Of a stretch of DNA of 64,000 bases, positions 1,972 to 44,812 are shown piece by piece. The notes under the pieces are model-generated. The model had not been told where the DNA came from and did no database searches. It saw only the letters and a program-made list of their open reading frames with translations. This stretch comes from Natronobacterium gregoryi SP2. Lineage in GTDB: Archaea; Halobacteriota; Halobacteria; Halobacteriales; Natrialbaceae. A program made the translations under genes and the position numbers. Each line of letters starts with the position of its first letter. Position 1 is the first letter of the stretch. The stretch lies in the NCBI RefSeq assembly GCF_000230715.2, contig NC_019792.1, forward strand, positions 2,108,001 through 2,172,000, in the 5' to 3' direction.

Positions 1972-1983
1972 AGGGTATATAAG
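1972..1983 (+). promoter_or_regulatory. TATA box of the hydrogenase operon
   Basis: GGGTATATAAGC is a strong archaeal TATA-like element in an AT-poor region. Transcription would start near 2006, giving an 80-nt leader before the ATG at 2085. It is the only clear promoter before the operon. Confidence 0.6.
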
Positions 1984-2084: not shown

Positions 2085-3275
2085 ATGACACAGCCTGATT
2101 GCAGTACTGACACGACAAAAGGGGGACAAGGTGGAGCGTCACGTCGGAACTTCCTTCAGCTCGCGGCCGGTGCAGCCGCCGGGACAGTTATTACGTCTTA
2201 CACGGCGGAAATCGGCTCGGCACTCGGACAGGCGATCGACGGTGATCTCGAGGTCGTCTGGCTGCAGGGCCAGGCCTGCACCGGGTGTACGATATCGACG
2301 CTGCAGGGGCAGTATCCGTCTCTGGAAGGGGTATTGAAGGATTTCCGCGTCGAAGTGACCTTTCATCCGACTCTGATGCCCGAAGCGGGCGAAGACGCGA
2401 TGGACTCGATGAGTATGGACCCCGACGTGTTGATCGTCGAGGGGTCCGTGCCGGTCGATATGCCGTCCGCGGCGACGGTTGGGGGACGAGCGATCTACGA
2501 CTGGGTTCAGGAACTCGCACCGGAATCCGATTACGTGATCGGCGTCGGTAACTGTGCTGCCTTCGGCGGTTGGCCGGCGGCCGAGAACAAGAAGGATCTC
2601 TACGGCCTGGGCGAGAACGTCACGGGGGCACGGGGCCTTCAGTTCGAACAGCGACAAGAGCGTGGCGTTCTCGGCCCCGACTTCGAGTCGGGGGCTGGCT
2701 TACCGGTCATCAACCTCGGCGGGTGCCCGATTCACCCAGACTACCTCCTGTTGACGTTGGCGACGGTGCTAAACGGTCACACGCCGGAACTCGACCGTTA
2801 CAACCGGCCGAAACCGTTCTACGAGCCACTCGTCCACGACAACTGTCAGCTCCGAGGGTACTTCGATCGCGGTGAGTTTGCCGAGAAACCTGGTGACGAA
2901 GGCTGTCTTCTCAAGGTCGGTTGTGCTGGTCCCTACACGAACTGTGACGACCAGCAACGGCTCTGGAACGACGGCACGAGCGTCTGCCTCGACGTCGGCG
3001 CAGCGTGCATCGGATGTATGGAGCCGGGCTTCTGGGATCGGTTCACGCCGTTTAACGAAGAGGTCGAACGACAGTCAGTCGTCGGCCCGATCACGGCAGA
3101 GCACGCTGGCTGGGCTGGCGTCGCCGCTGCTGGTGCCGGGATCGGTGCCCACGTCGCACGGAAAGCAACCGGGTACGGTCACTTCACGAAAGACGACGCG
3201 CCGGAGGAGATGAAAGAGGAAGCGACGGCCGAGATGAAAGAGGAAGCGACGGCCGAGCAAGACGATTCGAACTAA
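2085..3275 (+). CDS. hyaA: [NiFe] hydrogenase small subunit, Tat-exported
   Basis: Electron-transfer subunit of a membrane-bound uptake hydrogenase, 396 aa from the ATG at 2085; a TTG at 2022 is possible but adds an unlikely leader. It has a twin-arginine signal (SRRNFLQLAAG, residues 19-29). Cluster ligands are the proximal CTGC (65-68), GNCAAFGG, GGCPIHP, then a Cys-rich C-terminal half (VHDNC, GYFDRGEF, CAGPYTNC, CIGCMEPGFWD). A hydrophobic helix near the end (GWAGVAAAGAGIGAHVAR) would anchor it in the membrane. The proximal motif is CTGC, not the CTCC of O2-tolerant enzymes. The tail carries a perfect 24-bp tandem duplication. It lies directly before the large subunit. Confidence 0.95.
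   Translation: MTQPDCSTDTTKGGQGGASRRNFLQLAAGAAAGTVITSYTAEIGSALGQAIDGDLEVVWLQGQACTGCTISTLQGQYPSLEGVLKDFRVEVTFHPTLMPEAGEDAMDSMSMDPDVLIVEGSVPVDMPSAATVGGRAIYDWVQELAPESDYVIGVGNCAAFGGWPAAENKKDLYGLGENVTGARGLQFEQRQERGVLGPDFESGAGLPVINLGGCPIHPDYLLLTLATVLNGHTPELDRYNRPKPFYEPLVHDNCQLRGYFDRGEFAEKPGDEGCLLKVGCAGPYTNCDDQQRLWNDGTSVCLDVGAACIGCMEPGFWDRFTPFNEEVERQSVVGPITAEHAGWAGVAAAGAGIGAHVARKATGYGHFTKDDAPEEMKEEATAEMKEEATAEQDDSN
3207..3254 (+). repeat. Perfect 24-bp tandem duplication in the small-subunit tail
   Basis: Two identical 24-bp units (3207-3230 and 3231-3254) encode EMKEEATA twice, in the charged tail after the membrane helix. In frame and probably tolerated because the tail is flexible. Confidence 0.9.
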
Positions 3276-3290
3276 CGGAGGCTAAGATCA

Positions 3291-4859
3291 ATGGTGGAAG
3301 TTACTATCGACCCGACGACACGTATCGAAGGACACCACGGAACAGAACTGGAAATCGAGAACGGCGAAGTCGTCAACGCCAAAAGCCAGATGAAGATGTT
3401 CCGGGGTGCCGAAATAATCACGCTCGGGCGACCGCCCTACGACGCGCCCATGCTTACGGGGAAAGTCTGTGGGGTGTGTTTCACCTGTCACCGCCTCGCC
3501 TCGAGCAAGGCCGTAGAGAACGCTGCCCAGGACGCAGGCGTCTTCGAGGGACCGCCGCGGAACGCGGTCTTGCTTCGAAACGCCCTGGAAGGGATCTTCT
3601 ACCTGTGGAATCACGCGATCCACCTCTATGCGCTCGTGGGACCAGACTACAGCGACGCCGTTGCGGACACGGGTCTCGATCGGCTCGACCCGATCGAAGG
3701 CGAGGGTTATCAGGCGGCACTCGACCAGCAGCGGAAACTGCTCAAGGCGTTCGCCGAGTTCGGTGGTCGCGCACCCCACCCGCTGACGTACGTTCCTGGC
3801 GGGATGGCGGGCCAGCCCGATCCATCGACGGTCGAAAGCGTCAAATCGCGAGTCGCCGAGGTCAGTGAGTGGATCGGTCCAACCGAAGCCGCGCCGGAGG
3901 TTCTCGAGCGATACCTGGCGGCCGACGAGCCCGGTGACGTCGAGGTCGATCCCGACCTCGGCGAGGGACTGCACGACCTCGTCGGACTCCTCGTCGCGGC
4001 AGCCCAAGCGGGCACTGCCGAGCACGGTGTCGGGCCGAACCGGTATTACTCCAACGGCGTCTTCGATCACGCGGACGGGGACGGACTGTTCCTGGACCGC
4101 GGGATCTATCGCAACGGGCTGGTCGAGTCGAAGACGAGAGACGAGATCATCGACGCGATCAGCGAAGACACCGCATACTCCTGGTACACGAACGATTCGG
4201 GTGGCGATCCTGCGAAAGCGAAGCCGCCCGAGCCGGCTCCCGACAAAGACGACGCCTACTCGTGGGGGACGGCACCCAGATGGAACGGTCAGACGATGGA
4301 AACCGGCCCGCTCGCTCGGCTGGTCATCGACGACCGCGACCCGTTCGACCTGCGGGCCGACCTCGGTGGCGGCGCTGCCGAGAGCAACACGCTGAACCGC
4401 CTCATCGCTCGAGCACAGGAGATCCTGCTCGTCCGCGACGAGGTGCTGAACTGGCTAGACGCCCTCGACTTCGACGAACCGTTCGTCCACGAGTGGACCG
4501 ACGACTTCACTGGACAGGGCGTGGGTCTCTGGGAGCCATCGCGCGGGGCACTGTCCCATTGGACCAGCGTCGACAGCGGTGAGGTCGAGCGGTACCAGAT
4601 CATCACGCCGACGCTGTGGAATCTTGGGCCCCGCGACGCGGAGGGCCAACCGAGTATCCTGGAAGAAGGACTGGTTGGTATGGAAGTCGACGATGTCGAG
4701 AACCCGCTCAACGTGATGCGAACGATTCGCTCGTTCGATCCGTGTCTGGCCTGTGCGGTCCACGTCCAGAGCCCGGACGCGGAGTACGAGACCGTCCTCG
4801 AGCCGGCACGGCCCGGTGACAAACTCGGGGCCGAAACGGACGGCAGCCGAGGTGAGTAA
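3291..4859 (+). CDS. hyaB: [NiFe] hydrogenase large (catalytic) subunit
   Basis: Catalytic subunit carrying the Ni-Fe(CN)2CO site, 522 aa. The N-terminal motif is TTRIEGHHGTELEIE. The first Ni-binding pair lies in GKVCGVCFTCHR (consensus RxCGxCxxxH) and the second in FDPCLACAVHV (consensus DPCxxCxxH). About 30 residues follow that His (QSPDAEYETVLEP onward), the C-terminal extension that the maturation protease removes after Ni insertion. A ribosome-binding sequence, CGGAGGC, sits 8 nt before the ATG. It should be exported with the small subunit by Tat, since it has no signal of its own. Confidence 0.95.
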   Translation: MVEVTIDPTTRIEGHHGTELEIENGEVVNAKSQMKMFRGAEIITLGRPPYDAPMLTGKVCGVCFTCHRLASSKAVENAAQDAGVFEGPPRNAVLLRNALEGIFYLWNHAIHLYALVGPDYSDAVADTGLDRLDPIEGEGYQAALDQQRKLLKAFAEFGGRAPHPLTYVPGGMAGQPDPSTVESVKSRVAEVSEWIGPTEAAPEVLERYLAADEPGDVEVDPDLGEGLHDLVGLLVAAAQAGTAEHGVGPNRYYSNGVFDHADGDGLFLDRGIYRNGLVESKTRDEIIDAISEDTAYSWYTNDSGGDPAKAKPPEPAPDKDDAYSWGTAPRWNGQTMETGPLARLVIDDRDPFDLRADLGGGAAESNTLNRLIARAQEILLVRDEVLNWLDALDFDEPFVHEWTDDFTGQGVGLWEPSRGALSHWTSVDSGEVERYQIITPTLWNLGPRDAEGQPSILEEGLVGMEVDDVENPLNVMRTIRSFDPCLACAVHVQSPDAEYETVLEPARPGDKLGAETDGSRGE

Positions 4860-4861
4860 CG

Positions 4862-5812
4862 ATGACCGACCGCTCGATAAACGACGCTGACCGCCCCCCG
4901 ACAGACGAGGGATCGTCGGACCGGGTGCAGACGGACGGCGGCACTCGGGAAGTCGACCACGGCGGTATCATCGACATCGAACAAATACCGGTCGCCGGGA
5001 AATTCGTCGCGTCGATCCGGACCGAAATCGCCACCCGCTATGCGGGCTATCTGACTCTCAACAAGGAGGACAAGGAGACGATCCACCGCTGGGGGACCGG
5101 GTCGATCATCTGTCACTGGGTGATGGTGCTGTGTATGTTCATTGCCCTCGTGACCGGCGTCCAGTTCTGGACTGGCTGGTACGGTCCGCTGAACATCGGC
5201 ATCTGGGACGGCTATCAGGTCGCGTTCCAGCTCCACATGTGGGCGGGCGTGATACTCGCTGTCATCGCGCTCGTGATCTTCCCGTACTATCACAAGTTCG
5301 TCGACGGCCACGAGTTGCTGGTCTCTCTCGATCAGATCAAAGAGGAGATCATCATCGCGGTCTCGTTCGTCGGGTTGACGGATTACATTCCCGGCTACAA
5401 GAAAGCACGGCGGACGTACAACGAAGACCACGAGGAGTGGGTGGGCTACCATCCGATGCAGACGGTCTTCTGGTATGTCACGTGGTTTTTCGTGTTGGCG
5501 CTGACGGTGACTGGCTTCGCGCTGTGGAACGGCATCGCGACCGATCCAGCGTGGTGGATCGCTGCAATCGGCTTCATGGAAGGCTGGGTCACTTACGAGA
5601 CGATGTTGCGACTGCACCTGCTCGCGACGTTCTGGGTGATCGCAGCGGTCTCGATCCACGCGTACTTCCCGCTGATGCCGAGCAACCTCGACATGACGAA
5701 GTCGATGTTCACCGGCACGCTCGAGGGTTGGGTCGTCGACGACGAGACGAAACCGGAACCGGACGCTGAATCGACGGTCGAACGAACTCAAGACGAAACC
5801 AGCGATGACTGA
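4862..5812 (+). CDS. hyaC: Hydrogenase b-type cytochrome membrane subunit
   Basis: 316 aa. A hydrophilic acidic N-terminus of about 75 residues is followed by a cytochrome b561 / Ni,Fe-hydrogenase cytochrome b-like membrane domain with four main helices: around 88-112 (GSIICHWVMVLCMFIALVTG), 126-150 (LHMWAGVILAVIALVIF), 205-225 and 245-275. His residues at CHW, QLHMW, RLHLL and IHAYF are candidate haem ligands. It starts 3 nt after the large-subunit stop and overlaps the protease gene by 8 nt, so translation is probably coupled. It should pass electrons from the extracytoplasmic hydrogenase to menaquinone. Confidence 0.9.
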   Translation: MTDRSINDADRPPTDEGSSDRVQTDGGTREVDHGGIIDIEQIPVAGKFVASIRTEIATRYAGYLTLNKEDKETIHRWGTGSIICHWVMVLCMFIALVTGVQFWTGWYGPLNIGIWDGYQVAFQLHMWAGVILAVIALVIFPYYHKFVDGHELLVSLDQIKEEIIIAVSFVGLTDYIPGYKKARRTYNEDHEEWVGYHPMQTVFWYVTWFFVLALTVTGFALWNGIATDPAWWIAAIGFMEGWVTYETMLRLHLLATFWVIAAVSIHAYFPLMPSNLDMTKSMFTGTLEGWVVDDETKPEPDAESTVERTQDETSDD

Positions 5813-6323
5813 AACCGCTTCCCCGTCACCAGAGATCGCGGTCGTCGGCGTCGGGAACGAGATCATGGCCGACGACGGTATCGGGCCACGGATGATCGCA
5901 GCACTCGAGTCACAGCCTGCGGTCGCGACGGAGGCGATCCGCCTGTACGACGCGGGGACGACCGCGTTTCTCGCGCTCGAGGCGATGAGTGGCTGCGATC
6001 GAGCGATCGTCGTCGACGCGATCGAGACTGGGTCCGAACCGGGGACAGTCCAGGAGTATCGGTACGTCGACGGCGCGTTCGACGGGGAAGCACCGGACAT
6101 GACGATGCACGACGTCTCGTTTACCGAGGCGCTCGGGTACACAGACGGGACGTACGATTTGCCCGACGAGATGCTGGTCGTCGGTATCGAGCCGAAGCGA
6201 CTCGAGCCGGGTACTGAGCTGAGCGAACCGGTCGAGAACGCCATTCCAGCGGCTACGGATGTGATACTCGACTACGCCGCAGCGGCGGCCGATCGATCCA
6301 AGCACGTGGTAACGACCGAGTAG
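5805..6323 (+). CDS. hyaD: Hydrogenase maturation endopeptidase
   Basis: 172 aa, the HybD/HycI family that trims the large-subunit C-terminus once nickel is in place. Motifs: GVGNEIMADDGIGP near the N-terminus (Glu of GNE), VVDAIE (Asp), TMHDVS (His), and VVGIEPKRLEPGTELS. The Glu, Asp and His correspond to the three nickel-sensing ligands of the family. Its ATGACTGA start overlaps the cytochrome stop. One protease next to one large subunit with a matching C-terminal extension is the expected arrangement. Confidence 0.93.
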   Translation: MTETASPSPEIAVVGVGNEIMADDGIGPRMIAALESQPAVATEAIRLYDAGTTAFLALEAMSGCDRAIVVDAIETGSEPGTVQEYRYVDGAFDGEAPDMTMHDVSFTEALGYTDGTYDLPDEMLVVGIEPKRLEPGTELSEPVENAIPAATDVILDYAAAAADRSKHVVTTE

Positions 6324-6354
6324 CACAAGTGAGCGACCTGCGAATCATTCAGAT

Positions 6355-6552
6355 ATGAGTTCAAAGTGGTATTGTCGCGACTGTGAGACACGTATCGAGA
6401 GCGACGAGATCCAGGCACACGAGGACGACGGCCACGATGTCAAAGGTGTCGTTCGTCCGGACCGGCTGCTCGGAAACGATCCGTGGAACGTAGGTGTCCA
6501 GCATCGATCGGCAGACGACGAATCGACGGACGACGAAGAGGTGTCCGGCTGA
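6355..6552 (+). CDS. Small zinc-finger-like protein in the hydrogenase operon
   Basis: 65 aa with CRDC near residue 7 and HEDDGHD about 12 residues later, a C2H2-like metal site, followed by an acidic disordered tail (SADDESTDDEEVSG). The stop overlaps the hypC start by 1 nt, so it is translated within the operon. I do not recognise it as any standard hydrogenase accessory factor. A role in maturation, metal delivery or operon regulation is inferred from position only. Confidence 0.75.
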   Translation: MSSKWYCRDCETRIESDEIQAHEDDGHDVKGVVRPDRLLGNDPWNVGVQHRSADDESTDDEEVSG

Positions 6553-6917
6553 TGTGTCTCGGTATTCCCGGCGAGATCCTCGAGATTAACGGGGACGAAG
6601 CCCGAGCGGAGTTCTGGAACGTCGAGAAGACCGTCCGACTGGACATCGTCGGTGATACCGTCGAGGAGGGCGATTACGTCCTCAATCACGCCGGCTTTGC
6701 GATCCGGAAGATTCCCGAGTCGGAGGTCGAGGAGACGCTCGAGATCTACGAGTCGTTCCTCGAGGGCGACGAAGACGAGGCGCTCGAGGAGCTCGGTGCC
6801 GAAGACGCCGTCCTCGAGTTCGGCGACCGGCCGACAGCGGTTGACGGTGAGAGACAACCAGTGACGGCCGATCCTGGCGATCGGCGGTCTCGAGAGGGAA
6901 GCGACGATGAGCAGTGA
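6552..6917 (+). CDS. hypC: Hydrogenase maturation chaperone HypC
   Basis: 121 aa starting MCLGIPGEILEI; Cys2 is the essential residue that binds the Fe(CN)2CO precursor with HypD and delivers it to the large subunit. The first 75 residues are the HypC/HupF beta-barrel (VGDYVLNHAGFAI-type core visible as EGDYVLNHAGFAIRKI). The remaining 45 are an acidic extension not found in short bacterial HypC. The start is fixed by the N-terminal MCLG; a longer frame upstream overlaps the zinc-finger gene and is rejected. It overlaps hypD by 11 nt. Confidence 0.95.
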   Translation: MCLGIPGEILEINGDEARAEFWNVEKTVRLDIVGDTVEEGDYVLNHAGFAIRKIPESEVEETLEIYESFLEGDEDEALEELGAEDAVLEFGDRPTAVDGERQPVTADPGDRRSREGSDDEQ

Positions 6918-8013
6918 GACGGACCTCCAGTTTCGGGACCCGGACGCAGCCCACGAGCTTGCAGACCGACTGGCGGCGCTGATGGACGACATCGGAGAGT
7001 CGGTCAGTCTGATGCACGTCTGTGGCTCTCACGAGCAGGCGATCGCCAAATTCGGTCTGCGAAGCATGCTTCCCGACGGTCTTTCGATCCGGATGGGGCC
7101 GGGGTGTCCGGTCTGTGTGACGAACATGCCGGAAGTCGACGACGCCGTTGCCCTCGCCGAACAGGGGGCAATCGTCGCGACGTACGGTGATATGTATCGC
7201 GTCCCTGGAACGGAGGGGAGTCTCGCGGACGCCAGTGCAGCGGGGGCCGATGTCGAAATCGTCTATTCGGCGAGCGAGGCAGTCGAACTCGCCGCCGACA
7301 ATCCTGGCCGCGAGGTCGTCTTCTTTGCGACTGGCTTCGAGACGACCGCGGCTCCGACGGCTGCCATCCTCGCGGGCGGTCCGCCCAAGAACTTCTCGAT
7401 ACTCTCCGCGCACAAGTACGTTCCGCCGGCCATGGAGGTCGTCGCCGAACTGCCCGACACCGACATCGACGGCTTTCTGGCTGCCGGTCACGCCGCGACG
7501 ATCACCGGCTATGGACTGTTCGAAGAGTTCGTCGACCAGTACGAGACGCCGGTCGTCGTCGGTGGCTTCGAGCCACTCGACGTACTGCTCGGCGTCGAGC
7601 GACTGCTCGAGAATATCCGCGACGGCGAGGCTGGCCTCGAGAATGCCTATCCACGCTGTGTCTCGCGCGAAGGTAACACCGCGGCGCTGGAGACGATGTG
7701 GGATGTCTTCGAGACGACGTCGGGCGAGTGGCGCGGGATCGCGGAGATCCCGGACGCGAATCTGGTGCTCCGCGAGGAGTACGCCGAGTACGACGCTCGC
7801 ACGCGATTCGACGTCGATCCAGCCGTGGGGGATTCGGATCCGTTGACGGAGCAGTGTCTCTGTGGCGATATTATGGCGGGCACGGCGGACCCGGACGATT
7901 GCGATCTCTTCGGCGAGGAGTGTACGCCGGGCAACCCCGTCGGCGCGTGTATGGTAAGCAGCGAAGGCCCCTGCAAAATCTGGCAGGAGTACGGTGGAAA
8001 ACCGGATCTCTAA
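6907..8013 (+). CDS. hypD: Hydrogenase maturation factor HypD (4Fe-4S)
   Basis: 368 aa, the scaffold on which HypC, HypE and HypF products assemble the Fe(CN)2CO unit. Signature motifs: LMHVCGSHEQAI, RMGPGCPVCVTN, ATYGDMYRVPG, FFATGFETTAAPTAA, and C-terminal Cys residues (CLCGDIMAG, CDLFGEECTPGNPVGACMVSSEG) that hold the [4Fe-4S] cluster. Length matches the family. It is followed 1 nt later by hypE. Confidence 0.96.
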   Translation: MSSETDLQFRDPDAAHELADRLAALMDDIGESVSLMHVCGSHEQAIAKFGLRSMLPDGLSIRMGPGCPVCVTNMPEVDDAVALAEQGAIVATYGDMYRVPGTEGSLADASAAGADVEIVYSASEAVELAADNPGREVVFFATGFETTAAPTAAILAGGPPKNFSILSAHKYVPPAMEVVAELPDTDIDGFLAAGHAATITGYGLFEEFVDQYETPVVVGGFEPLDVLLGVERLLENIRDGEAGLENAYPRCVSREGNTAALETMWDVFETTSGEWRGIAEIPDANLVLREEYAEYDARTRFDVDPAVGDSDPLTEQCLCGDIMAGTADPDDCDLFGEECTPGNPVGACMVSSEGPCKIWQEYGGKPDL

Positions 8014-8014
8014 C

Positions 8015-9070
8015 ATGAACGACAGCGACGACTCGAACGACGAGGTAGTGACGCTTGCCCACGGTGCGGGCGCGGGATCGATGCGCGCGCTGATCGACGA
8101 CCTGGCGGTCTCGCGGTTCGCAGACGAAGACGAGCCAGCCGCCGACGAAGTCGGTCTCGCGGCCCTCGACGACGGGTCCGTCCATCCGCTCGAGAGCGGG
8201 GACGGATCGGTCGTTCACACGACCGACAGCCACGTCGTCAGCCCGCCGGTCTTTCCGGGGGGTGACGTTGGCAGGCTCGCGGTCGCTGGTACGGTCAACG
8301 ACCTGGCGGTCATGGGTGCGACCGATCCGCTTGGCCTCACCTGTTCGCTGATCGTCCAGGAGGGATACCCGATGTCGAAACTCGAGTCGGTCTTCGAGTC
8401 GATGCAGACGGCGTGTGAGGAGGCCGGCGTCCGGATCACCACTGGCGATACGAAAGTGATGCGAAGCGACGAGGTCGACGGGCCGGTGATCAATACGGCG
8501 GGCGTCGGCGTCGTCCCGCCTGGCGGTGCGGTTACCGACGCCGGGCTCTCGCCCGGTGATGCGGTCATCGTCAGCGGCACAGTCGGGGACCACGGCATCG
8601 CATTGCTCTCCGAACGCGAGGGATTCGGGTTCGGCGGCGACCTCGAGAGCGACGTCGCACCAGTCAACGATCTCGTCCGGGCGGCGATGGACGCCGGCTC
8701 CGTGACTGCGATGAAAGATCCGACACGTGGCGGGCTCGCGACCACGCTAAACGAGATCGCAGAGAAAAGTGGCGTCGGTCTCGAACTCGACGAGCAGTCG
8801 ATCCCGATCGACGACGCGATCGCAAGCGCTGGCGAAGTACTCGGTATCGACCCGCTTTCGGTCGCCAACGAAGGCAAAGCCGTACTTGGCGTCGACGCCG
8901 ACGACGCCGACGCCGTCCTCGAGGCCATCCGAGCGCACCCGACCGGCTCGGACGCGGCGATCGTCGGTCACGCGACCGCAGATCACACTGGCCGGGTCGT
9001 CCTCGACACTGGCTTCGGGAGACGGTACCTGAGCGAACCGGAGGGCGAAGTCCTTCCACGAATCTGTTGA
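8015..9070 (+). CDS. hypE: Hydrogenase maturation factor HypE (cyanide synthesis)
   Basis: 351 aa from the ATG at 8015; a GTG at 7994 inside hypD is less likely. AIR-synthase-like ATP-binding fold: LAHGAGAG at the N-terminus, GGDVGRLAVAGTVNDLAVMGA, TGDTKVM, KDPTRGGLATTLNE. It ends in PRIC; the C-terminal Cys receives the carbamoyl group from HypF and is dehydrated to thiocyanate. The full-length tail shows an intact, functional gene. Confidence 0.96.
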   Translation: MNDSDDSNDEVVTLAHGAGAGSMRALIDDLAVSRFADEDEPAADEVGLAALDDGSVHPLESGDGSVVHTTDSHVVSPPVFPGGDVGRLAVAGTVNDLAVMGATDPLGLTCSLIVQEGYPMSKLESVFESMQTACEEAGVRITTGDTKVMRSDEVDGPVINTAGVGVVPPGGAVTDAGLSPGDAVIVSGTVGDHGIALLSEREGFGFGGDLESDVAPVNDLVRAAMDAGSVTAMKDPTRGGLATTLNEIAEKSGVGLELDEQSIPIDDAIASAGEVLGIDPLSVANEGKAVLGVDADDADAVLEAIRAHPTGSDAAIVGHATADHTGRVVLDTGFGRRYLSEPEGEVLPRIC

Positions 9071-9074
9071 CACC

Positions 9075-9461
9075 ATGCACGAACTGAGCATCGCGTCCCG
9101 ACTCGTCGATCGTGCACTGTCGGCTGCCGACGAACACGACGCCGACGACGTCGAGGCGTTGGCGATCGACGTCGGTCGCGCAGCGCACGTCAATCCCGAC
9201 CAGTTACAGTTCTGCCTCGAGACTGCCGTCGACGAAACGATCGCTGCGGATGCGACGATCGACATCGAAACCGTGTCGCCACGTGCACGTTGTGACTGTG
9301 GCTGGGATGGCGAGCCCGACCGTCTCGAGGAGACGATCGCGTATGCACCGGACGTTCGCTGTCCCGACTGTGGCAAGCGGGCGGAACTCGTCGCTGGTCG
9401 CGAGTGTCGACTACGAAGTATCGAGATTCCGGACGCGAATGCAACCGAGGCGAGCAGTTGA
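9075..9461 (+). CDS. hypA: Hydrogenase nickel-insertion protein HypA
   Basis: 128 aa. MHELSIA gives the N-terminal nickel site (His2, Glu3). The zinc domain uses CDCGW and CPDCGK. The C-terminal tail is slightly longer than bacterial HypA. It starts 4 nt after hypE and precedes hypB after a 117-bp gap that holds a 61-bp direct repeat. It should hand nickel to the large subunit with HypB. Confidence 0.95.
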   Translation: MHELSIASRLVDRALSAADEHDADDVEALAIDVGRAAHVNPDQLQFCLETAVDETIAADATIDIETVSPRARCDCGWDGEPDRLEETIAYAPDVRCPDCGKRAELVAGRECRLRSIEIPDANATEASS

Positions 9462-9462
9462 T

Positions 9463-9572
9463 CGGCGAGTAGACCGATCGGTGCCGAGAGAACGGAGTGC
9501 TAACGAATACACTCAATACTGACCGGCGAGTAGACCGACTGTTATCGAGATAATCGAACGCTAACGATACTA
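9463..9572 (+). repeat. Two ~50-bp direct repeats, 61-bp period, between hypA and hypB
   Basis: Unit 1 (from 9463) and unit 2 (from 9524) share CGGCGAGTAGACCGA, then CGAGA, then GCTAACGA, at an identical 61-bp offset. The copies have diverged in between. This may be a regulatory duplication or an internal promoter region for hypBF. Confidence 0.7.
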
Positions 9573-9578
9573 CTTACC

Positions 9579-10340
9579 ATGTACAACCGAACGACACATC
9601 CCCTGACTCGAGCCCTGAATCGCCTGTTCGACGTCGGTCCGATCCGACTCCACCGGTTTGGCCACGACCACGACCACGAGGAGTCGACGACCGACATCGA
9701 GGCCGACGTCCTCGCCGCCGTTCGCGAGCGTGCTGGCGAGGTCCACGAACGTCTGGCTCACGACCACGGCGTCTACGGCGTCGAGTTCGCCGGCAGCACC
9801 GGCGGCGGCAAGACGCTGTTGATCGAACGGCTGATCGAACGCGCCCCGGAAGACGAACAGCTCGGCGTCGTCGTCGGCGACGTCGCCGGCGAAGACGACG
9901 CGAAACGGCTGCGCGACCACGGCGTCGCGGTCGAGAACGTAAACACCGGTAAGGAGTGTCACCTGGACCCGACGCTCGTCGACGAGGCGATCGAGTCGTT
10001 CGACCTCGAGACCCTCGACACGCTCTACCTCGAGAACGTCGGGAACATGGTCTGTCCCGCGGACTTTCCGCTCGGGGCGACCCGTCGCGTGCTAGTGGTG
10101 AGCACCACTGAAGGCGACGACGTCGTCCGCAAACACCCGATGCTCGTCCAGTCGGCGGACGTCGTCGTCATCAACAAGGTCGACATCGCAGACGCGGTCG
10201 GAACGGACGTCGACGTGATCCGGTCGGACGTCGAGGACGTCGCTCCGGGAACATCGGTCGTCGAGACGAACGCCCAGAGCGGCGAGGGCATCGCCGCGCT
10301 CGAGGCCGAACTCGAGGGTGAACACGACCACCACCAGTAG
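9579..10340 (+). CDS. hypB: Hydrogenase nickel-incorporation GTPase HypB
   Basis: 253 aa, SIMIBI-class GTPase. Walker A FAGSTGGGKTLLIERLIE, then VGDVAGEDDAKRL, GKECHLD, LENVGNMVCPADF, INKVDIAD (guanine-specificity loop). A His-rich patch near residue 28 (GHDHDHEE) and a terminal HDHHQ could store or bind nickel. GTP hydrolysis drives nickel release into the large subunit together with HypA. It is separated from hypF by only 5 nt. Confidence 0.95.
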   Translation: MYNRTTHPLTRALNRLFDVGPIRLHRFGHDHDHEESTTDIEADVLAAVRERAGEVHERLAHDHGVYGVEFAGSTGGGKTLLIERLIERAPEDEQLGVVVGDVAGEDDAKRLRDHGVAVENVNTGKECHLDPTLVDEAIESFDLETLDTLYLENVGNMVCPADFPLGATRRVLVVSTTEGDDVVRKHPMLVQSADVVVINKVDIADAVGTDVDVIRSDVEDVAPGTSVVETNAQSGEGIAALEAELEGEHDHHQ

Positions 10341-10345
10341 ACGCT

Positions 10346-12643
10346 ATGACTACCGAATCCGCGGATCGACGACGAGTCGAGGTGACCGTTACGGGTGTCG
10401 TCCAGGCCGTCGGTTTCCGGCCGTTCGTCTACCGACGGGCGACGACCCACGATCTCACCGGAACAGTCCGAAACACCGGCGACGCCGGCGTCGAGATCGA
10501 ACTCGAGGGGCGATCCGACGACGTCGAGTCGTTCCTGTCCGATCTCCGGGAGCGACCGCCGCCGCTTGCAGTCGTCGAGTCGGTGACCGTCGAGGAAGCC
10601 GATCCCGTCGGCGAGAGCGAGAGCGAGTTCGTCATCGAACCCTCGACGGACGGCGACGGCGGTTCGGGGACGATCCCGCCCGACACTGGGATCTGTGAGA
10701 CGTGTCTCGAGGACATCCGCGATCCCGACTCGCGGTACCACCGGTACTGGGCGACTGCCTGTGTCGACTGTGGGCCGCGATACACGGTAATCGAGTCGTT
10801 ACCCTACGATCGGCCGCGGACGACGATGGACGAGTTCCCGATGTGTACGGCCTGTCGCGAGGAGTACGAAGATCCCATGGATCGGCGCTATCACGCCCAG
10901 ACGACCGCGTGTCCGGAGTGTGGGCCGTCGCTGTCGTTGCTCGACGACGACCGTGGGGAACTCGCGACGGACGAGGAGGCAATCGCCGCCACGACCGATC
11001 GACTCGCCAACGGCGAACTCGTCGCGATCAGGGGGATCGGTGGGACCCATCTGGCCTGTCTGGCGACCGACGAGACGGCAATCGAACGGCTCCGAGACCG
11101 GACCGGTCGCCCGGCGAAACCGTTCGCACTCATGGCCTCGTCGCTTGACGACGTCGAGTCGTTTGCCGCCGTCGACGACCGCGAACAGTCGTTGCTTACC
11201 GACGTGCGTCGGCCGATCGTCGTGCTCGAGACCGAACGCGACGACGCGTGGCTCGAGGCCGTCGCTCCGGGGCTGCACACGGTCGGCGTGATGCTTCCCT
11301 ACGCTGGCTTGCATCACCTGCTTTTCGACGAACTCGACGATCCGCTCGTGATGACCAGTGCGAATCTGCCGGGACAGCCGATGGCGACGACCGTCGACGC
11401 CATCTACGAGCAACTCGAGGGCGTGATCGACGCGGCACTGGTCCACGACCGCGAGATCACCGCCCGGTGTGACGACAGCGTCGTCCGGGTCGTCGACGAC
11501 GACCGGCGGTTTCTCAGGCGGTCTCGAGGCTGGGTTCCACGTCCGCTCCCGCGTCCCGACTCCGGTCCGGAAGTACTGGCGCTCGGGGCCGAATTCGACA
11601 ACGTCGTCGCGCTCGCCCGTGACGCCGACGTGGTGCCGTCCCAGCATCTCGGCGATGTCGACGGGCCGGCAACCGAGGCGTTCCTCCGGGAGACGACCGA
11701 CCACCTCACGGAACTGTTCGGCGTCGAACCCTCCGTCGTCGCCTGTGACCGCCACCCCGGCTTTCGCACCACGGAACTGGCAGCGACCGTCGCCGACGAC
11801 CTCGAGGTCGACGCTCCGGTTCGCGTCCAGCACCACCACGCCCACGCAGCCGGACTTCTCGCGGAACACGACCGCGACCAGGCGGTCGTCGTCGTCGCCG
11901 ACGGAACGGGGTACGGATCCGACGGGACGATCTGGGGTGGCGAAGTGCTCTCTGTGACGCCCGCGTCGTTCGACCGTGTCGGCGGGCTCGATACTTTCCA
12001 GTTGCCCGGCGGCGAGTCGGCAATTCGTCGCCCGGCCCGCATTCTCGCGAGTCTCCTCCAAGACGACGAACGGATCGACGAGTTACTCGTCGACCGGACG
12101 CCCCTCGACGAGGACGCTGCCCGGACGGTCAGAGAGAGCGTCGCTGCCGACGTGAACGCGCCGGAAACGACCAGCGCCGGTCGGTTTCTCGACGCGAGCA
12201 GCGCACTGCTCGACGTCTGTTCACACCGGCGCTACCAGGGAGAGCCTGCACTCCAACTCGAGGCGGCCGCGGCCGACGCCGACCCGGTCGACATCGACGT
12301 ACCCTACACCGAGCGAGACGGTAGGCAGGTCGTCGACGTTGCTGCTCTCGTGCAGGCGATCGACGACATGCGTGACACGCACTCGAGACACCGTCTCGCG
12401 GCAACCGCACAGGAGACGCTGGCGCGTGGGCTCGGAACGATCGCGGCCCGGGCGGCGACCGACCGCGGGATCGACGCCGTCGGGTTTACTGGTGGAGTCG
12501 CCTACAACGAGGCTATCTCTCGGACGATCCGGGCGACAGTCGAGTCACACGACCTCGACTATCTCGCCCCCGACCGCGTCCCGCCCGGCGACGCCGGGAT
12601 CGCGTACGGGCAGACGGTCGTCGCGGCGAACCGCGTCGAGTGA
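10346..12643 (+). CDS. hypF: Carbamoyltransferase HypF
   Basis: 765 aa, makes carbamoyl-AMP from carbamoyl phosphate and transfers it to the HypE C-terminal Cys. Domains in order: acylphosphatase (GVVQAVGFRPFVYRRA, 8-95), two zinc fingers (CETCLEDI...CVDCGPR and CTACREEY...CPECGPS, about 110-190), YrdC/Sua5 domain (GGTHLACLATD, RPAKPFALM, about 200-380), and a Kae1-like domain (VQHHHAHAAGLLAEH, VADGTGYGSDGTIWGGE, GFTGGVAYN). Full length for the family. It ends the hydrogenase cluster; a palindromic repeat (P2) follows and may terminate transcription. Confidence 0.96.
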   Translation: MTTESADRRRVEVTVTGVVQAVGFRPFVYRRATTHDLTGTVRNTGDAGVEIELEGRSDDVESFLSDLRERPPPLAVVESVTVEEADPVGESESEFVIEPSTDGDGGSGTIPPDTGICETCLEDIRDPDSRYHRYWATACVDCGPRYTVIESLPYDRPRTTMDEFPMCTACREEYEDPMDRRYHAQTTACPECGPSLSLLDDDRGELATDEEAIAATTDRLANGELVAIRGIGGTHLACLATDETAIERLRDRTGRPAKPFALMASSLDDVESFAAVDDREQSLLTDVRRPIVVLETERDDAWLEAVAPGLHTVGVMLPYAGLHHLLFDELDDPLVMTSANLPGQPMATTVDAIYEQLEGVIDAALVHDREITARCDDSVVRVVDDDRRFLRRSRGWVPRPLPRPDSGPEVLALGAEFDNVVALARDADVVPSQHLGDVDGPATEAFLRETTDHLTELFGVEPSVVACDRHPGFRTTELAATVADDLEVDAPVRVQHHHAHAAGLLAEHDRDQAVVVVADGTGYGSDGTIWGGEVLSVTPASFDRVGGLDTFQLPGGESAIRRPARILASLLQDDERIDELLVDRTPLDEDAARTVRESVAADVNAPETTSAGRFLDASSALLDVCSHRRYQGEPALQLEAAAADADPVDIDVPYTERDGRQVVDVAALVQAIDDMRDTHSRHRLAATAQETLARGLGTIAARAATDRGIDAVGFTGGVAYNEAISRTIRATVESHDLDYLAPDRVPPGDAGIAYGQTVVAANRVE

Positions 12644-13041: not shown

Positions 13042-13830
13042 ATGGCACGACTCGAGCGCATCCGGACGTATCCCGTAAAGAGTCTCGACGGCGTCGACCG
13101 CGAGGAAGTGACGATCCGCGAGAACGGCACGCTCGCCGGCGACCGAACGTTCGCTCTCTTCGACGCCGACGGAAAACTCGTCGAAGGGCCGCGGACGGAC
13201 CGCGTCCACGACATTACGAACGAATACGACCCAGAGACAGGAACTCTGACCGCCGACATCTCGGGTTCCGACGAGAACGGACCGCGACAGTTCGATCTCG
13301 GCACCGATCGAGGCCGTGGTCGTGCGGCCGCGTGGTTCTCGGACGTCTTCGAGTTTGGCGACCTCACACTCGAGCGCGACGAGGATCGCGGCTACGTCGC
13401 TCGAAACGGAATGGGAACGTCAGTAATCAGCACTGCAACGCTCGAGACGGTCGCCGACTGGTTCGAGGATCTCACGGTTGAAAGCGTTCGACGACGGATG
13501 CGTGCGAACCTCGAAATTTCGGGCGTCGAGCCGTTCTGGGAGGATCGATTCGTCGGAGACGATGCGCCGGCCTTTGTTGTCGGCGGCGTGCGACTCGAGG
13601 GAGCGACGCCCTGTGCGCGTTGTGTCGTCCCCGGGCGCGACCCCGACACGGGCGAGCCCCTGCCTGAGTTCCGGGAGCGGTTCGTCGAGAAGCGCCGGGA
13701 GACGTTGCCCGACTGGGCCGACGAGGAGGCGTTCGACCACTACTACACGCTGATGCTCATCGCCGACGTCGTCGAAGCGGATCGAGGGACGACCCTCGCC
13801 GTCGGCGACACCGTGGAAACGCTCGACTGA
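13042..13830 (+). CDS. MOSC domain protein (molybdenum-cofactor sulfurase-like)
   Basis: 262 aa. An N-terminal MOSC_N beta-barrel (RLERIRTYPVKSLDGVDREE, GDRTFALFDADG) is followed by a MOSC domain with the conserved Cys in GATPCARCVVPGRDPDTG. Related proteins carry sulfur or Moco for reductases such as mARC/YcbX. The longer upstream frame is rejected because this ATG sits about 28 nt after a TATA-like box (leaderless). The TGA stop lies inside the start of palindromic repeat P3. Confidence 0.88.
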   Translation: MARLERIRTYPVKSLDGVDREEVTIRENGTLAGDRTFALFDADGKLVEGPRTDRVHDITNEYDPETGTLTADISGSDENGPRQFDLGTDRGRGRAAAWFSDVFEFGDLTLERDEDRGYVARNGMGTSVISTATLETVADWFEDLTVESVRRRMRANLEISGVEPFWEDRFVGDDAPAFVVGGVRLEGATPCARCVVPGRDPDTGEPLPEFRERFVEKRRETLPDWADEEAFDHYYTLMLIADVVEADRGTTLAVGDTVETLD

Positions 13831-28232: not shown

Positions 28233-28314
28233 GAGACGGACTGCTGTCCCGATGTCCCGGCGCGACCCCAGGAGCGCGCGGTCGCGCCGGCACTGACTGA
28301 CAGCAAACCGTCTC
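28233..28314. repeat. Interspersed palindromic repeat, copy P6
   Basis: The most regular copy: GAGACGGACTGCTGTCCCGA and ACTGACAGCAAACCGTCTC outside, CGGCGCGACC and GGTCGCGCCGG inside. It abuts the 101-bp element. Confidence 0.88.
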
Positions 28315-28415
28315 ATAGGGATTATCGTAGGAGTTCATAGTTTTCCCGTGACGGACCACGACACAGCGTCGAAGGACGGGCTTCGAAACCTCCGGTTGGC
28401 TACGATAATCCCTAT
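28315..28415 (-). repeat. 101-bp terminal-inverted-repeat element, copy 2
   Basis: Inverse of the element at 1760-1860 with a single substitution. Same 16-bp perfect inverted termini. It directly follows palindromic repeat P6, as copy 1 follows P1. Confidence 0.88.
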
Positions 28416-28790
28416 CAGTCGACGGTGAAGACGGTTCAAGTCGGCAAACAAGCGCCGGCAGACGACGACACTCTGTGTGTCGGTTCCGGACGAAAGTGGG
28501 TCGGGTGGTGGAACCGACCAACTGCCCCCAGTGTGGGTGATCGGGAAGATGTGGTGGTTGAATCGGTGTGTCGACAGTGGAGGCGGCAGGGTGTGTCACG
28601 TGTCGGACGGGACCAACCGTGGCAACGACTGAATCCCCCAATCCCTGCCAACTGGGCAATCGAACCTCTTCGTACTAAAACTGTTGGCCATACCGACAAC
28701 TCTTACCGGTCATAGCAGACAGCTAGCGCCGCCGACAGCGAAACAGGGCTTTGGAATCCCCCGACCCCTTCGACGGTACCACCGTTATAT
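28416..28790. other. Intergenic region with a possible decayed zinc-ribbon gene
   Basis: No intact gene. In one plus frame ACCAACTGCCCCCAGTGTGG reads TNCPQCG, and after a frame change GDREDVVVESVCRQ follows, which looks like a broken CxxC zinc ribbon. Weak evidence. GTTATATCGC near 28788 is the TATA box of the next gene. Confidence 0.3.
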
Positions 28791-41531: not shown

Positions 41532-43016
41532 ATGCAATCGCTTGCTGGTGATTCCATCGTCGTCGTCGGCGGTGGTATCGGGGGACTCTCGACGGCCTGT
41601 TATCTCGCCGACGCGGGTGCCGACGTGCGAGTTATCGAGAAAAACGAGCAACTGGGAGGTCGTGCGAGTCGCCTCGAGACGGACGGCTTCGAGTTCGACA
41701 TGGGGCCGTCGTGGTACCTGATGCCCGACGTCTTCGAGCGGTTCTTCGCGGATTTCGATCGAGAGCCGTCAGAGTACTACGGGCTCACCCACCTGGACCC
41801 ACACTACCGGATCTTCTTCAAAGACGAAGACAGGGTCGACGTGACTCCTGATCTCGAACGCACGAAAGATGTCTTCGAGGAGTACGAGCAGGGCGCGGGC
41901 GAGACGCTCGAGCGCTATCTCGAGAAGTCACGGGAGAACTACGAGATTGGGATGAAACACTTCGTCTACGAGGACCGGGAGCGACTCCGGGACTATCTGG
42001 ACCTGGACGTCGCCCGACAGGCGCGGGGGCTCTCGCTGCTGGGATCGATGCAGGGCCACGTCGAGAACTACTTCGATCACCCGAAACTCCAGCAGATAAT
42101 GCAGTACACGCTGGTGTTTCTGGGGGGCTCACCGAAGAACACGCCGGCGCTGTACAATCTGATGAGCCACGTCGACTTCAACCTCGGCGTCTGGTATCCC
42201 GAAGGCGGAATGAAAAGCGTCGTCGACGGCATCGCCGACCTCGGCCGGGAGCTGGGCGTCGAGTACGACACCAACCGACCGGCGACGGCGATCAAGGGAC
42301 GTGAAGGAGCGTTCCTCGTCGAGACGCCCGAGGGGCCGCTCAAGCCAGATCTGGTCGTCTCGAACACCGATTACGCCCACGCCGAACAGGAGTTGCTCGC
42401 GCCCGATCAACGTGGCTACGACGCCGACTACTGGGAGTCACGGACGTACGCCCCCTCCGCATTCTTGCTGTATCTCGGCGTCGAGGGCGACGTCGACGAG
42501 CTCGCCCACCACACGCTCGTCCTCCCGACCGACTGGGACCACCACTTCGATCAGATCTTCGAGGACCCACAGTGGCCCGACGACCCTGCCTACTACGTCT
42601 GTGTCCCCTCGGAGACCGACGACGCCGTCGCTCCCGAGGATCACAGCAACCTGTTCGTGCTGGTCCCGATCGCGCCGGGACTCGAGGACACGCCCGAGAT
42701 CCGCGACCGGTATCGCGACGACGTGCTCGACGACCTCGCGGAGAACACTGGAACCGACCTCCGTGACCGGATCGTCCTCGAGGAGCGGTTCTGCATCGAG
42801 GACTTCGCCGACCGGTACAACAGCAACCAGGGGACGGCGCTTGGCCTCGCTCACACGCTTCGACAGACGGCACTGTTCCGCCCGCCACACCGCTCGAAGG
42901 AGGTCGACGGACTCTACTTCGTCGGCGGCGATACGACGCCCGGCATCGGCGTTCCGATGTGTCTTATCAGCGGCGAAGTGACGGCCGAGAAGGTGCTCGA
43001 GGACTACGGCCGATGA
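41532..43016 (+). CDS. crtD: Carotenoid 3,4-desaturase / phytoene-desaturase family
   Basis: 494 aa FAD-dependent CrtI-type desaturase. The dinucleotide-binding motif VVVGGGIGGLSTACYLADAG is at the N-terminus; GRASRLETDGFEFDMGPSWY follows; the C-terminal FVGGDTTPGIGVPMCLISGE is the CrtI signature. It is the first gene of a tight trio with a lycopene elongase and CruF, the arrangement of bacterioruberin operons in which this gene is the 3,4-desaturase CrtD rather than phytoene desaturase. Confidence 0.88.
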   Translation: MQSLAGDSIVVVGGGIGGLSTACYLADAGADVRVIEKNEQLGGRASRLETDGFEFDMGPSWYLMPDVFERFFADFDREPSEYYGLTHLDPHYRIFFKDEDRVDVTPDLERTKDVFEEYEQGAGETLERYLEKSRENYEIGMKHFVYEDRERLRDYLDLDVARQARGLSLLGSMQGHVENYFDHPKLQQIMQYTLVFLGGSPKNTPALYNLMSHVDFNLGVWYPEGGMKSVVDGIADLGRELGVEYDTNRPATAIKGREGAFLVETPEGPLKPDLVVSNTDYAHAEQELLAPDQRGYDADYWESRTYAPSAFLLYLGVEGDVDELAHHTLVLPTDWDHHFDQIFEDPQWPDDPAYYVCVPSETDDAVAPEDHSNLFVLVPIAPGLEDTPEIRDRYRDDVLDDLAENTGTDLRDRIVLEERFCIEDFADRYNSNQGTALGLAHTLRQTALFRPPHRSKEVDGLYFVGGDTTPGIGVPMCLISGEVTAEKVLEDYGR

Positions 43017-43044
43017 CGACTCAGACTGCTCGACTGTGAGAACG

Positions 43045-43917
43045 ATGACGGAAACGACTGCCTCGGGACGCGACGATCGACTCGTCGCTCACTTCCGATA
43101 CTTGCTGGTGCTGTCGCGGCCGCGGTTCTGGCTCTACCTGGCGGGACCGGTACTGGTCGGCGTCGCCTACGCGGCCGGGACCACTGCCGACCTGTTTGCA
43201 CCTGCGGCTGTCGTCCTCTTTGGCTACTTTCTGGTCCCGGCGAACGTCTTCCTCTACGGCGTCAACGACATCTACGACCGCGAGATCGACGCCGAGAACC
43301 CGAAGAAAGACGACCGTGAGGTGCGGTACGGTGGCCAACGATACGTGCCGATTGCCGTCGTGGTCTGTGGCGTGTTCCCCTTGCTGTTCGTGTCCGTCGT
43401 TCCGACGGCAGCCTGGCCGTGGATCGTCGCGTTCCTCTTTCTGGGGGCGGCCTACAGCGCGCCCCCGTTTCGATTCAAGACGACGCCGCTGCTGGATTCG
43501 GTCTCGAACGGGCTCTACGTGGCACCCGGCGTGGCGGCCTACGCGGCCGTCGCCGGGACCCAGCCCCCTGTTCTCGCAATTCTGGGCGGCTGGCTGTGGG
43601 CGATGGGAATGCACACCTTTTCGGCCATCCCCGACATCGAACCTGACCGTGCGACCGGGACCCGAACGACAGCGACGGCACTCGGCGAGCACCGAACCTA
43701 CGCCTACTGTGGCGCGTGCTGGCTGGCGAGCGCCGTCGCGTTCGGCGCGATCGACTATCGGCTCGGGGCCGTCATGCTGGTCTACCCCGGACTGATCGCA
43801 GGAATCGTCGTCTCGAACGTCGCCGTCGATCGGGCCTACTGGTGGTTCCCGGCCATCAACACCGCCGTCGGTACGCTGCTGACGGTCGGTGGGCTCTGGA
43901 GGGTCGTCCATGGATAA
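43045..43917 (+). CDS. lyeJ: UbiA prenyltransferase, lycopene elongase
   Basis: 290 aa from the ATG at 43045. Eight or nine membrane helices; the UbiA Asp-rich motifs are NDIYDREIDAENPKKDDRE and DIEPDRATGTRTTA. It adds C5 units to lycopene, leading to dihydrobisanhydrobacterioruberin. It sits between crtD and cruF and overlaps cruF by 8 nt. Confidence 0.92.
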   Translation: MTETTASGRDDRLVAHFRYLLVLSRPRFWLYLAGPVLVGVAYAAGTTADLFAPAAVVLFGYFLVPANVFLYGVNDIYDREIDAENPKKDDREVRYGGQRYVPIAVVVCGVFPLLFVSVVPTAAWPWIVAFLFLGAAYSAPPFRFKTTPLLDSVSNGLYVAPGVAAYAAVAGTQPPVLAILGGWLWAMGMHTFSAIPDIEPDRATGTRTTATALGEHRTYAYCGACWLASAVAFGAIDYRLGAVMLVYPGLIAGIVVSNVAVDRAYWWFPAINTAVGTLLTVGGLWRVVHG

Positions 43918-44812
43918 CACGAACGCGACGAATCACGACAGACGAGAGACGAGCGGACGACGCGGAGCCGTCCAGCGTCGTCTCGAGGCGCTCATTCGGC
44001 AGAATCGGTTCACGATCGCCGTCGTCTTCCCGGTCGTCGGCGCGGTGACACTGGTCGCGAGCGCGGAGGGGTGGCTCCCGGAGCCACTCGCGTACAACCC
44101 CCTGTTTATCCTGTTTGGAACGGCGGTCATGCGTTCGCCGCTACTCGTCGGGGTCCTCCCGCGGATCGGCTGGTGGGCGCTGGGCTGTCTCGGCGTTCTG
44201 ACGGCATACACCTACGCGATCGAGGTGGTCGGCGTCCGGACGGACTGGCCCTACGGTGCCTTCGAGTACACGATCCAGCTCGGGCCGATGCTGCTGGGGG
44301 AGGTGCCGATCGCGCTTCCGCTGTTTTTCATCCCACTGGTGCTGAACGCCTACCTGCTGACGCTGCTGGTGCTTGGTGACTGGAGCGACCGACTCCTGGT
44401 GAGGGTCCCAGTCGCGATTGCGGCCGTCGTCGCCATCGACGTCGTTCTCGACCCGGCGGCCGTCGCCATCGGTTTCTGGGCCTTCGAGTCCGGCGGGTTC
44501 TACGGGGTCCCCCTCTCGAACTACGCCGGCTGGGTGCTGTCGGGGACCGTCGCCGTTGCGCTCGTCGATCTCGCGTTCGAGCGATCTGGACTGCTAGAGC
44601 GGGTCCGGGTGTGTGAGTTCATGCTGGACGACCTGGTGAGTTTCGTGTTGCTGTGGGGGTCGATCAACCTCCTGTACGGGAACTGGCTCGCCGCGGGTGT
44701 CGCTGGGTTGTTCTGTCTCGGCCTGTTCAGCACCGACCGATACGACCGTGAGATGGTGCTGACGGCGCTTCCCCGGTTCGATCCGGACCCCTCGAGCGGA
44801 CCGCGAAACTGA
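43910..44812 (+). CDS. cruF: Bisanhydrobacterioruberin hydratase CruF
   Basis: 300 aa from the ATG at 43910. Seven or so helices of the carotenoid-hydratase family: FTIAVVFPVVGAVTLVASA, LGCLGVLTAYTYAIEVVG and RTDWPYGAFEYT, the latter a conserved loop (WPYGxFxY). It adds the tertiary hydroxyls of bacterioruberin. Last gene of the trio. Confidence 0.92.
   Translation: MDNTNATNHDRRETSGRRGAVQRRLEALIRQNRFTIAVVFPVVGAVTLVASAEGWLPEPLAYNPLFILFGTAVMRSPLLVGVLPRIGWWALGCLGVLTAYTYAIEVVGVRTDWPYGAFEYTIQLGPMLLGEVPIALPLFFIPLVLNAYLLTLLVLGDWSDRLLVRVPVAIAAVVAIDVVLDPAAVAIGFWAFESGGFYGVPLSNYAGWVLSGTVAVALVDLAFERSGLLERVRVCEFMLDDLVSFVLLWGSINLLYGNWLAAGVAGLFCLGLFSTDRYDREMVLTALPRFDPDPSSGPRN

Follow-up and report, generated by a model that had tools for sequence, protein, structure and literature searches.

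What does a hydrogen-oxidizing enzyme do in a haloarchaeon long called an obligate aerobe? The question is raised by a gene cluster of Natronobacterium gregoryi SP2 located in the window analyzed here, a stretch of 64,000 nucleotides corresponding to bases 2108001-2172000 of the single 3,788,356-bp contig. The species identity is borne out by the Argonaute NgAgo, to which the genome gives a match at 887/887 residues. At window positions 2085-12643 on the forward strand, eleven intact genes are arranged in the order hydABCD-orfZ-hypCDEABF (Table 1). We conclude with high confidence that they specify an exported, membrane-bound, O2-sensitive uptake hydrogenase of group 1 (1a-like), which would channel electrons from H2 into anoxic sulfur reduction. 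Viewed in this way, the locus explains the H2 and sulfur life of this archaeon. The operon, N. gregoryi as its carrier and growth of the species with H2 and sulfur were already published in 2018; what is new is orfZ, a small gene that accompanies the enzyme in almost every sampled haloarchaeon having it. What interest remains is modest and lies in orfZ and several side observations.

An earlier note on this DNA had described an eleven-gene, co-oriented locus with the endopeptidase and all six hyp genes. All of its coordinates hold. Ten genes were named by Pfam or NCBIfam matches, mostly far above chance, and the eleventh is the 65-aa orfZ. Neighboring genes overlap or are separated by no more than ~31 bp, except for 117 bp before hypB. 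The same note had placed the locus beside bacterioruberin and Bat genes; these are ~29-38 kb distant (bacterioruberin-type genes at 41532-44812 and a Bat-type regulator at 50120-51748), not adjacent. In addition, the genome contains eight copies, at 96-100%, of a MITE-like element that is ~101 bp long and has terminal inverted repeats perfect over 16 bp. Two of these copies lie in the window, at 1760-1860 and 28313-28425, and one ends ~225 bp upstream of hydA. Downstream, ARAGORN called a tRNA-Arg at 13224-13318 (-) inside a MOSC-domain gene (13042-13830, +), which probably reflects either a miscall or an overlap.

Table 1. Features of the hydrogenase locus, in window coordinates.
Feature	Position	Strand	Evidence or remark
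TATA-box-like element TATATAAG	1976..1983	+	candidate promoter of the operon, ~109 bp upstream of hydA
hydA, [NiFe] small subunit, 396 aa	2085..3275	+	PF14720 1e-29, PF01058 5.5e-24
hydB, [NiFe] large subunit, 522 aa	3291..4859	+	PF00374 4.1e-82
hydC, b-type cytochrome (Ni_hydr_CYTB), 316 aa	4862..5812	+	PF01292 1.8e-12
hydD, maturation endopeptidase of the HycI/HyaD type, 172 aa	5805..6323	+	PF01750 1.4e-21, TIGR00072 2.8e-36
orfZ, 65-aa zinc-finger-like protein	6355..6552	+	conservation; strong matches confined to hydB genomes
hypC, hydrogenase chaperone	6552..6917	+	PF01455 4.4e-23
hypD	6907..8013	+	PF01924 1.6e-131; sole copy in genome
hypE	7994..9070	+	TIGR02124 5.7e-112
hypA, nickel metallochaperone	9075..9461	+	PF01155 2e-25
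hypB, nickel-insertion GTPase	9579..10340	+	TIGR00073 2.9e-66
hypF, carbamoyltransferase	10346..12643	+	TIGR00143 5e-244

Both Ni-binding motifs of HydB, CxxCxxxH (C60, C63, H67) and DPCxxCxxH (C485, C488, H491), are invariant in a 26-row alignment, in agreement with the claim that the Ni ligands are intact. A C-terminal extension beyond His491 would allow protease processing. HydA contains the proposed Tat motif (SRRNFLQL) and, as judged from an alignment of Cys residues, the ligands for three Fe-S clusters. Assignment of HydC as a cytochrome b was borne out by the PF01292 domain and four hydrophobic segments, in which His 85, 125, 252 and 266 appear from hydropathy to occupy canonical places. 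The membrane anchor ascribed to HydA is less secure: the C-terminal segment is conserved in sequence, but its hydrophobicity is mild (Kyte-Doolittle maximum 0.95), which we count against our preferred explanation. Taken as a whole, the earlier description of a membrane-bound, Tat-exported group 1 [NiFe] H2-uptake locus with all maturation genes in an extreme halophile is supported.

The best NCBIfam and PDB matches of this enzyme were NiFeSe/Desulfovibrio proteins. Among solved structures, HydB was closest to Desulfovibrio enzymes (228 and 225 bits), with [NiFeSe] HysAB (PDB 5jsu/2wpn) as the best match, compared to 187-175 bits for E. coli Hyd-1, Hyd-2 and the Cupriavidus necator MBH and 102 bits for HofG. 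HysAB shares the medial extra Cys and the 4-Cys proximal site, but has selenocysteine at the Ni site where N. gregoryi has Cys; in addition, the haloarchaeal enzyme comes with a cytochrome b gene of its own. A [NiFeSe] identity was rejected, as the Ni site reads DPCLAC with Cys and no selenocysteine, and the hydB frame is open without TGA.

With O2-tolerant MBHs (C. necator HoxKGZ and E. coli Hyd-1), the enzyme has in common small and large subunits, a b-type cytochrome and Tat export. However, when O2-tolerance hallmarks were sought in the HydA Cys alignment, no supernumerary proximal cysteines were found: the site is a standard 4-Cys one, with CTGC and NCAAFGG in place of CTCC and CASWGC of HoxK, and the operon contains no rubredoxin or HoxV-type accessory genes. 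Membership in the O2-tolerant group 1d was rejected because the two supernumerary Cys are absent. The medial cluster resembles that of the Desulfovibrio [NiFeSe] enzyme in having a Cys (Cys301) at the position taken by Pro in HoxK. By family knowledge, these proximal and medial ligands predict sensitivity to O2 and a medial cluster of the [4Fe-4S] type.

Close HydB homologs (57-100% identity) were detected in 27 of 394 sampled Halobacteria species genomes (~7%), representing 16 of 86 genera; four further matches in this set were more distant or partial. It is therefore fair to call [NiFe] hydrogenases uncommon in Halobacteria, as had been stated. We built a HydB tree in which bacterial references were few, and two of these had been assembled from printed alignments. 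The tree gives no resolution for the position of Desulfovibrio HysA, and its haloarchaeal sequences form three supported clades. Clade A (support 98/96) contains N. gregoryi, which branches early, Natrarchaeobaculum sulfurireducens AArc1 and Halodesulfurarchaeum. Clade B includes Haloplanus, Halorussus, Halonotius, Halovenus and others. Haloplanus, Halorussus and Halovenus are usually described as aerobes. The view that haloarchaeal hydrogenases are mostly tied to anaerobic sulfur respirers suits N. gregoryi, but understates their spread, given the occurrence of clades B and C in usually aerobic genera.

Clade C operons had no hydC match where the flank was covered, and clade C HydA has no twin arginine. 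Four of the five clade C loci L060, L061, L063, L064 and L067 encode HydA with a strongly hydrophobic C-terminal segment (Kyte-Doolittle 2.3-2.6). These features suggest that the clade C enzyme may reside on the cytoplasmic side. At the proximal cluster, clade B HydA (L051-L057, L062) contains CSAC and TCACYGG, with a Cys not present in clade A, and Salinibaculum HydA (L058, L059) contains TCASYGG. A different hydrogenase, 44-46% identical over residues 3-125 only, was found in genomes of the same family (L035 and L036 in G118 and G265; also G299). It could be the 1h/1l-type enzyme mentioned for Halopiger salifodinae (PMC11018855).

One of the closest known systems is that of AArc1, whose plasmid pAArc1-02 carries all eleven genes in an identical order, with HydB 72% identical. 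H2-dependent sulfur/DMSO respiration was demonstrated for this strain by Sorokin et al. 2018 (PMC6176080). The AArc1 module is plasmid-borne with an ABC uptake operon upstream, whereas the N. gregoryi locus is chromosomal, without an ABC operon, and takes an early branch within the clade. HydABC has also been reported for Halodesulfurarchaeum formicicum (PMC5437934). This group 1 enzyme likewise has three subunits, including a cytochrome b, and in our tree a MAG of the genus (L050) belongs to the same clade as N. gregoryi (HydB ~67% identical). H. formicicum differs in that the host is an obligate anaerobe.

For N. gregoryi itself, the 2018 report (PMC6176080) states that the genome has all determinants for sulfur-reducing lithotrophic growth, and that the organism, previously described as an obligate aerobe, formed sulfide strongly once adapted, while growing anaerobically as a lithoheterotroph on H2 (but not on formate) and elemental sulfur. 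There, the haloarchaeal enzymes are classed as HydDB 1a, with hydD and hypA-F adjoining hydABC. This published growth, together with the O2-sensitive type of cluster, places N. gregoryi within the very set of sulfur respirers with which it had been contrasted in the earlier note.

Use of H2 with sulfur is known at the species level, and for the individual enzyme steps we propose the following. Based on family knowledge, Hyp proteins would assemble the Fe(CN)2CO centre and add the Ni, HydB would be trimmed by HydD, and the folded HydAB dimer would be exported by the Tat system on the HydA signal. H2 would then be oxidized on the outer face, and electrons would pass via HydA clusters and HydC haems to the menaquinone pool, and from there, under anoxia, to a polysulfide/sulfur reductase. 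Seven molybdopterin oxidoreductases were detected in the genome. Two of these resemble PhsA/PsrA, carry a Tat signal and lie in polysulfide/thiosulfate-reductase-type operons, each together with an Fe-S and a membrane subunit. In one (L110, G000:C1:545000-560000), the membrane subunit is hydrophobic with no Pfam family match, and genes for a rhodanese protein and for an HTH regulator of the Bat type lie nearby; the other (L111, G000:C1:2218000-2233000) has a clear NrfD subunit and a NarJ-like chaperone. Both are plausible acceptors of hydrogenase-made quinol. In addition, an ArrA-like molybdopterin oxidoreductase (L043, G000:C1, ~3265074), which scored 1050 bits, under the curated cut-off of 1600, is possibly a further anaerobic acceptor pathway.

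The earlier note had instead proposed H2 as a supplementary donor for an aerobe. In this reading, H2 electrons would feed aerobic respiration, and this could extend to low or atmospheric H2. Group 1 enzymes do pass electrons to quinone, where oxidases could use them, and relatives from clades B and C are found in usually aerobic genera, but the standard 4-Cys proximal site with a [NiFeSe]-like medial Cys is not the O2-tolerant 6-Cys type, and similarity to O2-tolerant enzymes and HofG is below that to Desulfovibrio enzymes. The description of N. gregoryi as an obligate aerobe also favors this proposal, yet the same source (PMC6176080) reports that the AArc strains, which are relatives of N. 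gregoryi, did not use H2 aerobically. Given the absence of supernumerary Cys, the medial Cys, the two sulfur-reductase-type operons and the 2018 physiology, we regard a role as aerobic donor as very unlikely, and H2-driven sulfur respiration as better supported.

It is also conceivable, but highly improbable, that under some conditions the enzyme works in reverse and disposes of surplus reductant as H2, for example together with the second, cytoplasmic hydrogenase present in the genome. [NiFe] hydrogenases are reversible, and relatives of the 1a/NiFeSe type can produce H2 well. However, an outward-facing, quinone-linked cytochrome b enzyme has little driving force for H2 evolution, and in the published growth H2 was the donor (PMC6176080).

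The new element of the locus, orfZ, is tightly embedded in it. Its stop overlaps the hypC start (TGATG), and the position hydD-orfZ-hypC is kept in relatives whose flanks reach far enough. The protein contains C7-x2-C10 and H22-x4-H27, all four residues being invariant in relatives. Searches with a 20-row alignment gave strong matches (E <= 2.2e-18) in 25 of the 27 hydB genomes and in none of the 367 others among 394 Halobacteria genomes; wherever positions were compared, the matches were near hydB. The two hydB genomes without a strong match (G089 and G320) also have no hydC and no nearby hyp genes. No Pfam or NCBIfam family matched above cut-off, with weak sub-threshold zinc-finger matches, and the AArc1 copy is annotated as "hypothetical protein" in RefSeq. 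An AlphaFold2 model has a strand-strand-helix-strand core, confident only for ~residues 1-30, and a fold search against PDB yielded no significant match (best E 0.69).

Conservation and exclusive co-occurrence with hydB led us to reject a chance ORF. Rubredoxin HupI/HoxR was rejected as well, since two CxxC motifs are needed and orfZ has one CxxC plus H-x4-H, and so was a haloarchaeal C(P)XCG zinc-finger micro-protein, which needs two C(P)XCG motifs compared to the one CxxC present. Although no known family covers it, the confinement of its strong matches to hydrogenase genomes suggests that OrfZ probably serves this hydrogenase specifically, as a small metal-binding accessory or as a local regulator. 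Tentatively, it may be a metal-binding accessory required for assembly of the haloarchaeal group 1 enzyme at molar salt, acting in metal/Fe-S delivery or as a pre-Tat checkpoint. It could instead, with some doubt, act not in maturation but as a regulator, as does the haloarchaeal zinc-finger micro-protein Brz: according to PMC2253796, one of the small zinc-finger proteins of haloarchaea is a transcription regulator whose gene lies beside its target. However, orfZ lies inside the maturation block and overlaps the hypC start, its strong matches occur in hydrogenase genomes only, and it is without the pair of C(P)XCG motifs known from the described micro-proteins. The role of orfZ, as well as the loss of the Tat motif and cytochrome b in clade C, bears on how [NiFe] hydrogenases are matured and sited in a high-salt cytoplasm.

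As the genome encodes two hydrogenases, the hydABCD locus cannot take sole credit for the use of H2 by N. gregoryi, a point against our preferred explanation, and since HypD was found as a single copy in a genome search, both hydrogenases must share it. A search of the genome for the nickel transporter types CbiM/NikM and NicO found neither, even though two Ni enzymes are encoded; Ni supply is thus unexplained, which we likewise count against our preferred explanation. The second [NiFe] hydrogenase (L006:6399-12020; G000:C1:2784398-2790019) consists of HdrA-like, MvhD/FlpD, small subunit, large subunit and protease genes. It is a VhuA-like, cytoplasmic HdrA-MvhDGA-like enzyme with intact Ni ligands, in which no Tat motif was seen. 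The homologs nearest to its large subunit in other haloarchaea, from genera g28, g47 and g54, are only ~40% identical; in three of their loci that were checked, neighbors showed only short partial HdrA matches and no MvhD match.
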